Below, in pieces: positions 51,957 through 61,320 of a stretch of DNA of 64,000 nt. Origin of the DNA: Hyphococcus luteus (GTDB taxonomy: Bacteria > Pseudomonadota > Alphaproteobacteria > Caulobacterales > Parvularculaceae); contig NZ_PJCH01000005.1 in the NCBI RefSeq assembly GCF_002943565.1, positions 1,054,001-1,118,000 of the forward strand, read 5' to 3'. The position numbers and the translations under genes are program-made. Under the pieces are notes generated by a model. It searched no databases, was not told the DNA's origin, and worked only from the letters and a program-made list of their open reading frames with translations. Each line of letters begins with the position of its first letter. Positions within the stretch are counted from its first letter, which is position 1.

Positions 51957-52427
51957 ATGATGCGCGTCATGAACAAGGTCAAAACTTTCATTTTCCCGGC
52001 CGTTCTTGCCGCCGGCGCGCTGTTTTTCGCTCTTTCGGGGCGGACGGCCGCGACCGGCGCCGAATACGGGCTCGACCGCGAGCCGGAACTGGTCGCCGCC
52101 ACCTTTTCGTCGGCCTGGTGCTCGTCCTGCAAGATCCTTGAGCCGCGGCTGGCGAAAGTGATCCCCGATTTCGCCGACAAGCCTGTGAAATTCGTCGAGC
52201 TCGATTTCACCTTCGGCCAGCGTGACGACATTGCGGAGAAGGCGCGCGCCGAAGGGTTGGCGGAAATCTATCCGCGCTTTAAAGGCGCGACCGGCTTCAC
52301 CTTGCTTGTGGACCGGGATACGGGCGAGGTTATCGATATGCTGACCATCGATTATTCGAAATCCGCCATGCGCGCCGCGCTCGCCCAGGCGCTCGCCGTT
52401 GCGGCGGTCAGCAAGCCGGCCGATTAA
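51957..52427 (+). CDS. Thioredoxin-domain protein, membrane-anchored
   Basis: 156 residues. ATGs at 51957, 51960 and 51969 are all usable; from 51969 the protein starts MNKVKTFIFPAVLAAGALFFALSG, a signal or anchor. The redox motif is AWCSSCKILEPRLAKV (CxxC). The fold then continues KFVELDFTFGQRDDIAEKARAEG and GATGFTLLVDRDTGEVID. Likely a periplasmic or membrane-facing thiol protein; no partner is evident. Ribosome site is weak. Confidence 0.8.
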   Translation: MMRVMNKVKTFIFPAVLAAGALFFALSGRTAATGAEYGLDREPELVAATFSSAWCSSCKILEPRLAKVIPDFADKPVKFVELDFTFGQRDDIAEKARAEGLAEIYPRFKGATGFTLLVDRDTGEVIDMLTIDYSKSAMRAALAQALAVAAVSKPAD

Positions 52428-52658
52428 TTGTTCCTTATACGAAGTTTCCAGATTTGATACGGGGGTTGCGGCCGCCAAAACCCAGTTCGGGACGCGTTGA
52501 CAATCGTCCATGACGGGCGATTTTGCTTGCGCTTTTTCGCCTTTTGAGGCACGATAAAAGCCGTTCCGAGGGGCGTCCCGCCTGTCGCCAATGGACGACG
52601 GCTCGTGCGACGCGCAACTCGTTTGCCCTTTAAGGGATCCTTGGGGGAGCAACGAGCA
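52428..52658 (+). other. Non-coding stretch upstream of TPP riboswitch 1
   Basis: No gene seen. A possible -35 (TTGACA, 52497-52502) has only a poor -10 (GATTTT, 52519-52524) at 16 bases. It would lead into the riboswitch at 52659-52744. No further signal found. Confidence 0.3.
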
Positions 52659-52744
52659 ATACGCGCCAGGGAGCCAGGGCAATTGGGACTGAGAAAGACC
52701 CTTTGAACCTGAACCGGGTCATGCCGGCGCAGGAACGGAACCGC
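52659..52744 (+). promoter_or_regulatory. TPP riboswitch (thi box), apparently orphan
   Basis: Core TPP aptamer: CCAGGGAGCC, CTGAGA (52689-52694), ACCCTTTGAACCTGA (ACCTGA 52707-52712), and CCGGGT-CAT-GCCGGCGCAGG (P5 hairpin, end near 52733). These match the conserved thi box, although the final GGGA reads GGAA. No clear gene follows on the plus strand: 52745-52928 contains only an 18-codon frame (ATG 52772), the next gene is on the other strand, and a weak terminator lies at 52870-52890. See findings. Confidence 0.85.
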
Positions 52745-52771
52745 GAAAGACTTGGAAAACCCTGCATTTGA

Positions 52772-52828
52772 CATGCAGCGTTGGCTGAGCCTGACGTCGA
52801 TTTCCTCATCGCTGGGCCTGAAAGCTTA
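52772..52828 (+). other. Short 18-codon frame after TPP riboswitch 1
   Basis: ATG CAG CGT TGG... reads MQRWLSLTSISSSLGLKA and stops at TAA. No ribosome site is obvious. It could be a leader peptide, the remnant of the lost regulated gene, or chance. Nothing supports function beyond its place after the riboswitch. Confidence 0.2.
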
Positions 52829-52869
52829 AGCGGCGATGAGGAGACCGGCCCGTTAGTCGGATTTGTTTT

Positions 52870-52890
52870 GACGGTTGCGCCGTCTGTTTT
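52870..52890 (+). terminator. Weak plus-strand terminator after TPP riboswitch 1
   Basis: GACGG (52870-52874) pairs with CCGTC (52880-52884) around TTGCG, then TGTTTT. Stem 5 bp only. A larger inverted repeat CCTCATCGC/GCGATGAGG lies upstream (about 52806-52845). Confidence 0.4.
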
Positions 52891-52928
52891 GACCGCAACG
52901 ATGCAGAAGTTGTTGCGGCTGCTTTCCG

Positions 52929-54518
52929 TCACCGGAAATAGAAAATCAGCGCGATGGTCAGGAGCGCGAGCCCCAGCGCCTGCCAGCGATAATCGTGACG
53001 CCATTTGCGCATTGAGCCCTCGTCATGGTCATGGGCAAGATCGGGCAGGCGAAAATGCGTATGCGCTTTCGCCGCCGGTCCGCGCCAGCGCACGCTAAGG
53101 CCGGCGAGCAAGGCGCAAGCGGCGAGGAACAACAGCCCCGCCATGATGGTGAAGTGAATATCCGGTCCGCCGGCCGCCGCCCAGAGACCGGTGACTTCTT
53201 TTGCGACAAAGAGGGCAAGTCCCGTAGGGATCATGATGAGGAGCGTCCAGAAGGCGGCGCGGGCGCTCACCCGCGAAACGAAAAGCCCGCCCATGAAGGT
53301 CGCGACGACCGCCGGCGTGATATAGGCGAGCGTCGACTGGAAATAGGAAAAGAGCGAGCCGAAACGCTCCACCAGCGGCACGACGCCCATGCCGAAAATC
53401 ATCATGGCGCCGGTGACCGCGCGCCCGATCCATAAAAGCGTATGATCGCCTGTTTCGGGGCGCGCCGGTTTGACGAAATCCATGGTGACGATGGAGGCGC
53501 CGGCGTTGAACGCGCTGTCGAGGCTCGACATGATGGCGGCGATCAGCGCGGTGACGATGAGGCCTTTGAGCCCCGCCGGCAACAGCTCGACGATCAACGT
53601 CGGGAAGGCGAGATCGGGGCGGTCGAGCGCCGGAAACAGAACGAAGGCGATGAGCCCCGGGAGCATCATGAAGAAAAGGTTCGGCAGCTTCAAAAAGCCG
53701 CCGAAGAGGGCGCCCCGCCGCGCGGCTTTCAAGTCCCGCGCGGCGAGAACGCGCTGCACGAAATACTGGTTGAGGGTCCAGTAATAAAAGCCGAGCAGCA
53801 AGACGCCGAAAAGCCCCGTCCAGGGGAGAAAGTCGTCGCTTGCAGGCTTGATCATCTGCGTGCGGCTCGCGTCGAGTTCTGCGAACAAGGCGTCCCAGCC
53901 GCCGACGGCGCCCAGCCCCGCCCAGAGAATGACGAGAGAGCCGACGATCATCAGCGCGGCCTGCACCGCGTCGGTGACGACGACCGCGCGAAGCCCGCCC
54001 GCCACCGTATAGACGCCGGCGAGAAGCGCAATCAGCGCCGCCGCGCCCCAAAGGGAAAGCGCCGGGATGAACATGGAGATGACGAGCCCGCCGGCGAACA
54101 GCGCCCCGGCGATGTCGATGAACATCAGCGTGAACAGCGTGAAGGCGGCGTAAAGCCGGCAGGTGCGCTCGTCAAAGCGGGTTTTCAGATATTCTGGCAC
54201 GGTGAAAAGTTTCGCGCGCAGGAATACCGGCGCCATGAAAAGCGCAAAGAAAATCAGCACCGCCGCGGCGGTCCATTCATAATTGAAAACGACGAGCCCG
54301 TATTCGTAAGACGCGCCGATCAGCCCCACGAAACTCGCACCCGACATGTTGGAGGCGTAAAGCGAGGCGCCGATCAGCGGCCAGGCGAGGGAGCGTCCGG
54401 CCAGGAAATAATCGTCGGCGTTGCGCTCGCGCCGTCCGGACCAGAAGCCGTGCGCCAGAACCGCCGCAAAATAGACAATAATGACGGCGATATCGAATGT
54501 GGCGAGATCGGCGTGCAT
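52929..54518 (-). CDS. Sodium:solute symporter (SSS/SGLT family)
   Basis: 529 residues with about 13-14 helices. Family signatures: NADDYFLAGRSLAWPLIGASLYASNMSGASFVGL and later SSLDSAFNAGASIVTMDFVKPA. A hydrophilic His-rich tail (HTHFRLPDLAHDHDEG) and one final helix follow. Solute unknown (sugars, amino acids or organic cations are possible). The gene is alone on the minus strand, opposite to TPP riboswitch 1. Confidence 0.93.
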   Translation of the reverse strand: MHADLATFDIAVIIVYFAAVLAHGFWSGRRERNADDYFLAGRSLAWPLIGASLYASNMSGASFVGLIGASYEYGLVVFNYEWTAAAVLIFFALFMAPVFLRAKLFTVPEYLKTRFDERTCRLYAAFTLFTLMFIDIAGALFAGGLVISMFIPALSLWGAAALIALLAGVYTVAGGLRAVVVTDAVQAALMIVGSLVILWAGLGAVGGWDALFAELDASRTQMIKPASDDFLPWTGLFGVLLLGFYYWTLNQYFVQRVLAARDLKAARRGALFGGFLKLPNLFFMMLPGLIAFVLFPALDRPDLAFPTLIVELLPAGLKGLIVTALIAAIMSSLDSAFNAGASIVTMDFVKPARPETGDHTLLWIGRAVTGAMMIFGMGVVPLVERFGSLFSYFQSTLAYITPAVVATFMGGLFVSRVSARAAFWTLLIMIPTGLALFVAKEVTGLWAAAGGPDIHFTIMAGLLFLAACALLAGLSVRWRGPAAKAHTHFRLPDLAHDHDEGSMRKWRHDYRWQALGLALLTIALIFYFR

Positions 54519-54602: not shown

Positions 54603-55400
54603 ATGCATGGGGCCGGCCTGATGATTTGGAAGACGATGGCGATTGGGTGCGCCCTGATGCAAGCGGCGGCGGGCGCCGCCTTTGCGCAAGAGCGCGCCCC
54701 GCATTGCGTCGAGAGGGCGCGCAAAGACATTGATTATATTGTTTGCCGTTTCGGTCCGCAGGCGGGCGGCGTTCGTCTGTTCCTGAATGACGCGGAAAGC
54801 GAGCCCTACGGCCACTTCAATTTCGTCAGGGACGCGCTGGCGGCGAAGGGCGAACGCCTGGTCTTCGCCATGAACGCCGGCATGTATCATGCGGACAGGC
54901 GGCCCGTGGGGCTTTATGTGGAAGAGGGCGAAGAGGCCGCGCCGCTCAACGACAATGACGGCCCCGGCAATTTTCACTTAAAACCGAACGGCGTGTTTTT
55001 CATCACAGAGGCCGGCGCGGCGGGCGTTTTGGAGACCGAAGCGTTCGTGAAGCGTTTTCCTCCCCCGTTCACGGAGGAGCGGAATATTGCATACGCCACG
55101 CAATCGGGGCCCATGCTGGTCATCGACGGCAAGCTTCATCCGCGTTTTCTGCCCGATTCGGATTCGCTCAAACGCCGCAACGGCGTCGGCGTGACGGAAA
55201 AAGGCGAGGTTATATTCGTCCTCTCCGACAGTCCGGTCCGGTTTCACCATTTCGCGCTGTTCTTTCGCGACGCATTGAAAACGCCGAACGCGCTCTATCT
55301 CGACGGAACGATCTCGCGGCTTTACGCGCCGGAGCTTGACCGCAACGATCCGGGCGCCGCGATGGGGCCGATTGTCGGCGCCGTTGCAAAAGAAGACTGA
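54603..55400 (+). CDS. Phosphodiester glycosidase (NAGPA-like) domain protein, secreted
   Basis: 265 residues; ATG 54603 or 54621 (MIWKTMAIGCALMQAAAGAAFAQ is the signal). The body has the NAGPA-type fold: FNFVRDALAAKGERLVFAMNAGMYHADRRPVGLYVEEG, GNFHLKPNGVFFI, AYATQSGPMLVIDGKLHP, GVGVTEKGEVIFVLSD and NALYLDGTISRLYAPE. Acts in the periplasm or outside; substrate unknown. The GFA-family gene follows at 19 bases. Confidence 0.85.
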   Translation: MHGAGLMIWKTMAIGCALMQAAAGAAFAQERAPHCVERARKDIDYIVCRFGPQAGGVRLFLNDAESEPYGHFNFVRDALAAKGERLVFAMNAGMYHADRRPVGLYVEEGEEAAPLNDNDGPGNFHLKPNGVFFITEAGAAGVLETEAFVKRFPPPFTEERNIAYATQSGPMLVIDGKLHPRFLPDSDSLKRRNGVGVTEKGEVIFVLSDSPVRFHHFALFFRDALKTPNALYLDGTISRLYAPELDRNDPGAAMGPIVGAVAKED

Positions 55401-58192: not shown

Positions 58193-58272
58193 AAACGGCG
58201 GGTTTCACCCCTGGCTTCACTGTGCGTGGCTTTCCTTGATGGACACCCGCCGATTTGCTAGAAAGCGACCAC

Positions 58273-58386
58273 ATTCCGAGGGGCGCCGGCGGCACCGGCT
58301 GAGACCTTGTTTTTCCTCTTCCGGGAGGAAACGGCACAGGGGCACCCTTTGAACCTGATCGGTTAACACCGGCGTAGGGACGGAGG
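58273..58386 (+). promoter_or_regulatory. TPP riboswitch with P1 overlapping the Shine-Dalgarno
   Basis: CCGAGGGGCGCC, CTGAGA (58299-58304), a long P3a insertion, ACCCTTTGAACCTGATC (ACCTGA 58353-58358), ACACCGGCGTAGGGA (to 58380). P1: TCCG (58275-58278) pairs with CGGA (58381-58384), which is part of the ribosome site GGAGG (58382-58386), 5 bases before ATG 58392. TPP binding should therefore hide the ribosome site: translational control. The regulated run is a four-helix protein, a PH-domain protein and thiC. Confidence 0.93.
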
Positions 58387-58391
58387 CGCTT

Positions 58392-58802
58392 ATGATCACC
58401 ACATCCACCGTGCTGACCCTGTCGCTCGCGAAGGCGATGGGCTTTTATTTCATCGCCGGCGGGCTGTCGGGCTTCATCAGCCGCACCCGCTGGGCGGCGA
58501 TCCTCGATGAATTTATCGCGCGGCCGGCGCTCACCTTTATCTCCGGCGTCTTCGTTTTCGTCCTCGGCGCGGCGCTCATCATGGCGCACAACATCTGGAC
58601 CGATCCGCTGGCCATCGCCGTGACGTTGATCGGCTGGGCCGCGGCGATCGAGGGGATCGTCCTCGTCGCTTATCCGGACCCGCTCTTGAGATGGGCGGTC
58701 AAATTCGTGCGCCCCGGCGCGGTCCGCGCCTTTTCCGTCTTCACCATCCTCCTCGGCGCCGTCTTCCTGGCGCTCGGCTTCACCGGCCGGGCGGGGCTTT
58801 GA
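58392..58802 (+). CDS. Four-helix membrane protein under a TPP riboswitch, unknown
   Basis: 136 residues, four predicted membrane helices: about 7-30 (LTLSLAKAMGFYFIAGGLSGFI), 45-66 (LTFISGVFVFVLGAALIMA), 71-92 (LAIAVTLIGWAAAIEGIVLVAY) and 112-133 (FSVFTILLGAVFLALGF). Start placed directly after the riboswitch, whose P1 holds its ribosome site. Not recognised as a known thiamine transporter. Co-regulation with thiC makes a role in transport of thiamine or its pyrimidine precursor plausible, but this is inference. Confidence 0.8.
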   Translation: MITTSTVLTLSLAKAMGFYFIAGGLSGFISRTRWAAILDEFIARPALTFISGVFVFVLGAALIMAHNIWTDPLAIAVTLIGWAAAIEGIVLVAYPDPLLRWAVKFVRPGAVRAFSVFTILLGAVFLALGFTGRAGL

Positions 58803-58807
58803 GCGTC

Positions 58808-61320
<2,513 letters not shown>

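Follow-up and report, generated by a model that had tools for sequence, protein, structure and literature searches.

Few RNA switches have been studied as thoroughly as TPP riboswitches, which usually, though not obligatorily, lie upstream of thiamine genes. Long-P3 TPP riboswitches are described from fungi, where P3 has a length of at least 100 nt and the generic Rfam model often fails (PMC11683625). The passages of PMC2258182 on unusual arrangements give one antisense SAM-I riboswitch, that of Clostridium acetobutylicum, with no further candidates in the Barrick and Breaker data, and a handful of aptamers located away from the genes of their own metabolite, which may act via trans-acting RNAs or be orphaned; an independent small-RNA role is raised there for orphaned aptamers. 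The RZ small RNA of Sinorhizobium is derived from the metZ SAM-II riboswitch (PMC9373788), and RNA homodimers, including riboswitch dimers from crystals, have been reviewed (PMC7357161). Among the open-licence papers searched, none was found on a bacterial long-P3 TPP form, on Parvularcula riboswitches, on phosphodiester glycosidase riboswitches or on palindromic TPP riboswitch dimerization.

The element discussed here lies in a 64,000-nucleotide stretch of Hyphococcus luteus DNA, called the window below (Table 1). It shares with the family RF00059, and with the thiC riboswitch of the same window, the P1-P5 layout and the core of CUGAGA, ACCCUUUGAACCUGA and GGCG, and differs from them in a branched P3 insert of about 105 nt, a score below the Rfam cut-off and the lack of a thiamine gene directly behind. 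The fungal long P3 is a long variable stem (PMC11683625, in the part that describes it), whereas the bacterial form is a conserved three-way junction. Like the antisense SAM-I riboswitch it stands downstream of and opposite to another gene, but in contrast to the description in PMC2258182 there is no terminator/antiterminator found, no known ligand-related target operon and no conserved layout. As with RZ, the short transcript of a riboswitch would be a small RNA in an alphaproteobacterium; a regulated gene follows RZ (PMC9373788, as far as its account of RZ goes), whereas none is adjacent here. With kissing-loop homodimers it shares a self-complementary loop; compared with the crystal riboswitch dimers covered in the review (PMC7357161, in its sections on them), the dimer here is predicted from covariation alone and two palindromes stand in one loop. 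We regard it as an even call that this element is a clade-specific TPP riboswitch RNA whose function would be independent of the neighbouring gene.

Table 1. Features of the leader and its immediate neighbours (window positions)
Feature	Position	Strand	Remarks
Thioredoxin-like gene	51966..52427	+	PF00085; synteny marker
Promoter-like block (putative)	52526..52555	+	-35 CTTGCG (52526-52531), -10-like CACGAT (52550-52555)
TPP aptamer, long-P3 form	52563..52741	+	179 nt, P1 to P1'
Branched P3 insert	52580..52684	+	~105 nt; three-way junction, stem plus two arms (P3b, P3c)
Variable spacer, aptamer to hp2	52742..52795	+	2-169 nt across 32 loci; contains ATG of 18-codon frame
hp2, long conserved hairpin behind aptamer	52796..52849	+	covariation
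First hp2-loop hexamer	52814..52819	+	GGGCCT here, self-complementary only with G-U; GGATCC in 18/32 loci
Second hp2-loop palindrome	52824..52831	+	GCTTAAGC
Weak terminator-like hairpin	52870..52884	+	followed by TGTTTTGACC; not a conserved part
SSS-family sodium:solute symporter	52929..54518	-	PF00474, E 3.2e-64; tail to tail with leader

A long-P3 TPP aptamer in part of the Parvularculaceae

The RF00059 model matches the plus strand at 52658-52753 with 48.5 bits (E 2.2e-8 over 701 bases searched; the same 48.5 bits with E 3.5e-8 in a genome-wide search), which is below the gathering score of 54.3 bits, an annotation cut-off and not a biological trait. P1 was broken in this alignment. About 100 nt further upstream of the match the relatives carry a nearly invariant block beginning GTTCCGAGGGGCGTCCC, and the true 5' strand of P1 is GTTCCG at 52563-52568, pairing with CGGAAC at 52736-52741, so that the aptamer spans 52563-52741. 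The conserved core motifs and the P1-P5 helices of the TPP riboswitch are all present in this interval, with P3 formed by GTCCC (52575-52579) and GGGAC (52685-52689). An earlier note on this DNA had placed a TPP aptamer on the plus strand, which the RF00059 match, core motifs, helices and covariation bear out; its start at 52659 was wrong: only the 3' half had been seen, and about half of the aptamer lies outside the range that it gave. Its description of the neighbours, the 18-codon frame and the weak hairpin stands; it had overlooked the promoter-like block upstream, the branched insert in P3 and hp2, a hairpin that covaries.

The structure was evaluated on 31 aligned sequences, the window included and two loci with far larger inserts (L096 and L103) omitted. 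Paired states fill 95.2% of the pair cells, 11 of the 47 pairs show compensatory change, and the covariation of 0.127 compares with at most 0.055 for slid versions. P1 varies on one side only and P3 not at all, while the lower stem of P3c has both-side changes at four of its five pairs, one of these (40-155) being unpaired in 23/31. The core residues CTGAGA, ACCTGA and GGCG are invariant in this set, and the RNA from 52563-52741 would be expected to bind TPP. One deviation is seen at J5/4, where GAACC replaces GATCC at 52713 (U-to-A) solely in the window's genome (G000), G043 and G009, with T in 28 of the 31; this change could weaken TPP binding or alter ligand affinity. The P3 insert is about 260 nt in two genomes; the omitted L096 and L103, from the same genomes as L170 and L169, have aptamers of ~335 nt with a very large additional insert in P3c.

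A DNA search detected the long form in 25 of 28 genomes of the genus, the window's own included, and the three misses are genomes of 83-88% completeness. Our model R1, whose training set includes the window's own sequence, scores 186.6 bits at 52563-52741 and is found at 141 bits or more in 32 of the 62 family genomes, 31 of which served to build it, G148 being new. Together with G076 and G157, which have larger inserts and were recognised by hand, the long form is present in 34 of the 62 Parvularculaceae genomes. An order-wide pattern allowing up to 3 mismatches hit 36/398 genomes, 34 of them in the Parvularculaceae and the other two at 3 mismatches, and an exact 23-mer returned 30 stretches from a collection of 84,980 species, labelled Marinicaulis, Parvularcula, Parvularculaceae, Amphiplicatus or unplaced alphaproteobacteria. 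Amphiplicatus metriothermophilus is one cultured species with the long form. The long-P3 form is specific to part of the Parvularculaceae. At its cut-off, Rfam reports the long form in none of 20 relatives' loci, its five matches there lying elsewhere, and in the window it reports solely the TPP riboswitch of ordinary form (58269-58397, 64.9 bits), which is followed by a small reading frame and then by thiC (59410-61320), and a serC leader (RF00517, 46405-46457, 59.1 bits). The P3 insert is the likely cause of the score shortfall, and the cut-off overlooks a bacterial long-P3 TPP form. About 30 family genomes match R1 twice, with one strong and one weak form. In G224, a 215-nt TPP riboswitch (L165) a short way ahead of thiC has a long P3 that by eye seems unrelated; such arms may have had more than one origin within the Parvularculaceae.

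A conserved leader ending in a hairpin with a palindromic loop

In all 33 loci read, the window's included, the thioredoxin-like gene precedes the leader, and a CTTG motif stands 36 nt (24 loci) or 37 nt (9 loci) before P1. This constant spacing makes the block a candidate promoter; a sigma-70 consensus scan of 52000-54500 found none. Behind the aptamer, hp2 has ~16 pairs with one usual mismatch and was found in 32 of the 33 loci; it was not recognised in G002 (L034), although the aptamer is present there. Over 32 sequences 94.1% of its cells are paired, 10 of 19 pairs are compensatory, and covariation is 0.256 against at most 0.117 when slid. The exact hp2 pattern has one match in the window's genome.

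The elements around hp2 are less constant. The 18-codon frame mentioned by the earlier note can be made out by eye, with its ATG at 52773 in the spacer and its stop within hp2, and likewise in the sister genome G043, but the spacer measures just 2-7 nt in ten of 32 loci, and the frame is therefore not a general part of the element. The weak hairpin at 52870-52884 likewise exists; terminator-like hairpins occur 3' of hp2 in 14/32 loci against 7.0 expected, a mild enrichment on which a universal intrinsic terminator was rejected. A small reading frame beginning inside hp2 (ATG/GTG-AGG-AGA), visible by eye at many loci, was dropped as a conserved feature because divergent arms, that of L083 for example, no longer have the start codon. 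In L025, L037, L041 and L042 the likely start codon of the NAGPA gene sits, by eye, in a short hairpin of the type CGTATGCGG behind hp2; T's sometimes follow, and in these four such hairpins may link translation to termination.

The loop of hp2 contains two short words that tend to be self-complementary. The second one (columns 31-38 of alignment A3) is a perfect Watson-Crick palindrome in 17 of 31 sequences, by six different sequences. Its central columns 34-35 are complementary in 28/31 (U-A 13, A-U 12, G-C 2, G-U 1), and columns 33-36 in 30/31 when G-U is allowed; neighbouring bases are unable to pair inside a single hairpin. Taken together, the two words have seven pairs with a covariation of 0.472, compared with at most 0.194 for slid and 0.215 for shuffled versions, while two of the five measures are weak, namely double-change pairs (5 against 3.9 shuffled) and further pair types (14 against 11.7). 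When 183 centres were scanned over both alignments, the hp2-loop centre came out top by far (covariation 1.054, the next 0.413). On a thioredoxin tree, which is modest (11 of 30 inner branches starred, an unsettled bootstrap, some long branches), the loop word changes at least 21 times and its self-complementary state at least 4 times, and 26 of 31 words are self-complementary with G-U. Measured without alignment, the longest Watson-Crick palindrome of the loop averages 7.25 nt against 3.58 in shuffles (32 sequences); seven of the 32 are individually below p 0.05, the sequences being related to each other. G148, from a further genus and outside the alignment, has GCAATTGC at the palindrome position. 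The pattern was spotted after the fact.

A self-complementary loop maintained by covariation, as in a kissing-loop dimer, is what these numbers describe, the two weak measures included, and RNA homodimers via the hp2 loop are the simplest reading at which the palindromes hint. No cis partner of the second palindrome was found in the leader and the next ~1.4 kb of 31 sequences (8-mer: 2 found, 0.86 expected; 6-mer core: 6 found, 10.2 expected). Self-duplex energies were discarded as proof of a dimer: the loop averages -13.7 kcal/mol against -11.5 for shuffles (31 sequences), and four of five other leader stretches also beat their own shuffles, by about 1-4 kcal/mol. Self-pairing stronger than pairing with other species in 31/31 is biased, because a self-pair is symmetric.

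The same palindromes might act at the level of DNA, as the site of a dimeric protein or through a mutational bias to palindromes, and not as RNA dimers. Palindromes are typical of dimeric DNA binders, and the slight excess of self-duplex energy, shared by other stretches, would suit such an explanation. However, a protein site would retain its sequence, whereas this word has changed again and again while mostly staying self-complementary, and G-U pairs are tolerated as in RNA. We consider the DNA-level explanation a real possibility, if a rather unlikely one.

Alternative folds were also compared. RNAalifold alone favours over the canonical fold (A) a 5' hairpin (B) in which the 5' strands of both P2 and P3 find their partner on the 5' side of P3c. 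Since A and B are mutually exclusive, B is a candidate for the ligand-free state. In the private helix of B 97.8% of cells are paired and no pair has changed on both sides, so that its conservation may be a by-product. Partition-function folding of the whole leader without ligand gives P1 a probability below 0.5 in 15/32 sequences (0.15 in the window); in 28/32 the hp2 5' arm has a probability of at least 0.9 of pairing downstream. A conserved switch helix between aptamer and hp2 was not found (mean z 0.1, 32 sequences). An anti-aptamer pairing between the hp2 loop and the 3' half of the aptamer (CCGGAUC/GAUCCGG, noticed by eye in several relatives) was rejected because it did no better than shuffled loops in that comparison.

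Gene turnover behind a retained leader

The genes behind the leader are diverse. A same-strand gene stands directly behind it in 20 of the 33 loci: NAGPA in 9, a secreted protein of ~260-300 aa in 4, a small secreted protein in 3, a barrel protein in 3 and an AspH-like protein in 1. A convergent gene comes first in five (DsrE 3, winged-helix/TPR-like 1, SSS 1), a minus-strand reading frame in two (L096, L103), and in four (L034, L035, L036, L093) nothing was identified before the next riboswitch, L035 having an unassigned 172-aa reading frame. The assignment was partly by eye, as were the AspH-like and winged-helix/TPR labels, and L083 and L084 are outside the 31 assigned loci; over these the gene-behind state changes at least 18 times on the thioredoxin tree. 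The name DUF4136 for the secreted-protein family is a guess; Pfam gave no family for the L092 member and NCBIfam none for the L039 member. Aptamer pairing in the 11 loci without an identified same-strand neighbour is 98.3% of 46 pairs (9 aligned), compared with 95.9% in the other 22 (22 aligned, two of the loci unassigned). Pairing in hp2 is lower without a neighbour (93.8%, 10 rows, against 97.7%, 22 rows), mainly through one row with alignment gaps (L103, 8/16).

An ordinary cis riboswitch would explain much of this: read-through past hp2 would control whatever lies behind, including a larger same-strand block of glycosidase, peptidase and thiC with its own TPP riboswitch, and the retention seen here would reflect long-range read-through across the symporter. 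In all 26 of the 33 loci whose stretch, or longer stretch, includes thiC, this gene follows the leader in the same orientation, 0.85-7.7 kb away, so that cis control of a larger transcript could account for retention; the 20 loci with a same-strand neighbour and the mild enrichment of terminator-like hairpins fit as well. In G233 an ordinary-form TPP riboswitch (L172) stands directly before NAGPA and thiC, an arrangement that links the secreted phosphodiester glycosidase to thiamine control. On the other hand the synteny may be merely inherited, a convergent gene comes first in five loci, and thiC, 6.8 kb away in the window, has a riboswitch of its own. We hold cis control to be possible but unlikely.

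In the window, as the earlier note had said, no plus-strand gene follows the leader for more than 1 kb and the minus-strand symporter ends at 52929. The next plus-strand gene, a NAGPA-type phosphodiester glycosidase, starts at 54603, and the distance from hp2 to the symporter stop is 79 nt. The note had asked whether the regulated gene was deleted or the read-through made an RNA antisense to the symporter, and gene content at the locus in relatives speaks for the former. Among 44 other genomes searched the symporter has an ortholog in G009 alone (81%, the next best 45%); in the sister G043 nothing closer than distant paralogs was found. In G009 (L024) the symporter lies ~0.8 kb behind hp2, and a secreted-protein gene in two frames, 220-1013 nt after the element start, still stands between; this frame-split gene is a pseudogene or an assembly error. 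A search of G000 with the L039 member found no copy of the secreted-protein gene (best E 0.12). The state of G000 is thus best read as loss of a gene that stood between leader and symporter.

Such a loss could be too recent for visible decay, the riboswitch being a useless relic, and the missing gene copy in G000, the frame-split copy in G009 as a sign of decay in the wider clade and the U-to-A change in J5/4 would agree with this. The comparison of G000 with G043, polarised by the outgroup G005, points the other way. Leaving out the P3c apex, 139/142 aptamer positions are identical, as are 41/45 in the promoter block and 50/54 in hp2, against 17/24 plus a length difference in the apex, 47/54 in the spacer, and 67/103 and 26/80 in the upstream and downstream flanks. 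Fourfold sites differ by 19-33% (identical: PurA 173/246, SerA 223/300, Trx 45/67, ThiC 250/310). In the order promoter block, aptamer, hp2, spacer and apex, changes unique to G000 number 0, 0, 2, 1 and 3, those unique to G043 number 3, 1, 2, 3 and 2, and those of ambiguous polarity 1, 2, 0, 1 and 2. With no unique change across 45 + 142 promoter and aptamer sites (three ambiguous) against the fourfold difference, the RNA is probably still used in G000. Other lineages without an identified gene directly behind have been conserved over far longer spans. G017 and G022, where neither has an identified gene before the next riboswitch, are identical at 163/170 aptamer and 53/54 hp2 positions, with fourfold sites at 39/87 (PurA, part), 30/61 (Trx) and 160/288 (ThiC); for G016 and G019, both with convergent DsrE, the aptamer is identical at 165/191 and hp2 at 47/54, with 105/227 (PurA) and 29/56 (Trx). 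The leader needs no fixed neighbour, and a relic seems improbable to us.

Antisense control of the symporter by leader read-through, which the tail-to-tail layout at 79 nt and the precedent in PMC2258182 (as its antisense passage presents it) would suggest, is more improbable still and unsupported as the purpose of the element, given that the ortholog is so rare and separated by a gene in G009, that the symporter adjoins the leader region in 2 of the 33 loci and unrelated convergent genes fill the place elsewhere, that the leader stays conserved where what follows is unrelated or absent, and that apart from the weak hairpin no terminator/antiterminator pair or conserved alternative helix from hp2 loop to aptamer was found. 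The symporter is a neighbour and not judged part of the system, although an incidental antisense effect may occur in this lineage.

A proposed TPP-responsive RNA and what it may mean

Our preferred reading, a clade-specific riboswitch RNA independent of its neighbour, builds on anatomy, covariation, promoter-like spacing, synteny, gene turnover and constraint, all taken from sequence, and predicts from them transcription, TPP binding, a switch, stand-alone function and dimerisation. The leader RNA would be self-contained: transcription would start from a promoter-like block of its own, and hp2 would form the end of the conserved part. Bound TPP would favour the aptamer, with P1, P2, P3 and the branched arm of P3, over hairpin B, which would tie up the 5' strands of P2 and P3 and exclude the aptamer, and the output would pass via hp2 or via polymerase run past hp2. 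In relatives the leader could control whichever gene stands behind it; here the adjacent gene would have been lost and the convergent symporter become next while the RNA was retained, most likely because it acts alone as a small RNA responsive to TPP, perhaps dimerising with itself via the hp2 loop. The fullest version, a free-standing TPP-sensing RNA that pairs with its own second copy via the hp2 palindrome and acts in trans, is a tentative one that we think unlikely.

Conservation without a fixed target gene offers a natural test of riboswitches as independent small RNAs, and the self-complementary loop of hp2 predicts something simple that can be checked, namely RNA homodimers in a bacterial regulator. 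If true, part of the Parvularculaceae would have kept a small RNA that is controlled by a metabolite and associates with itself, even as the genes behind it turned over.
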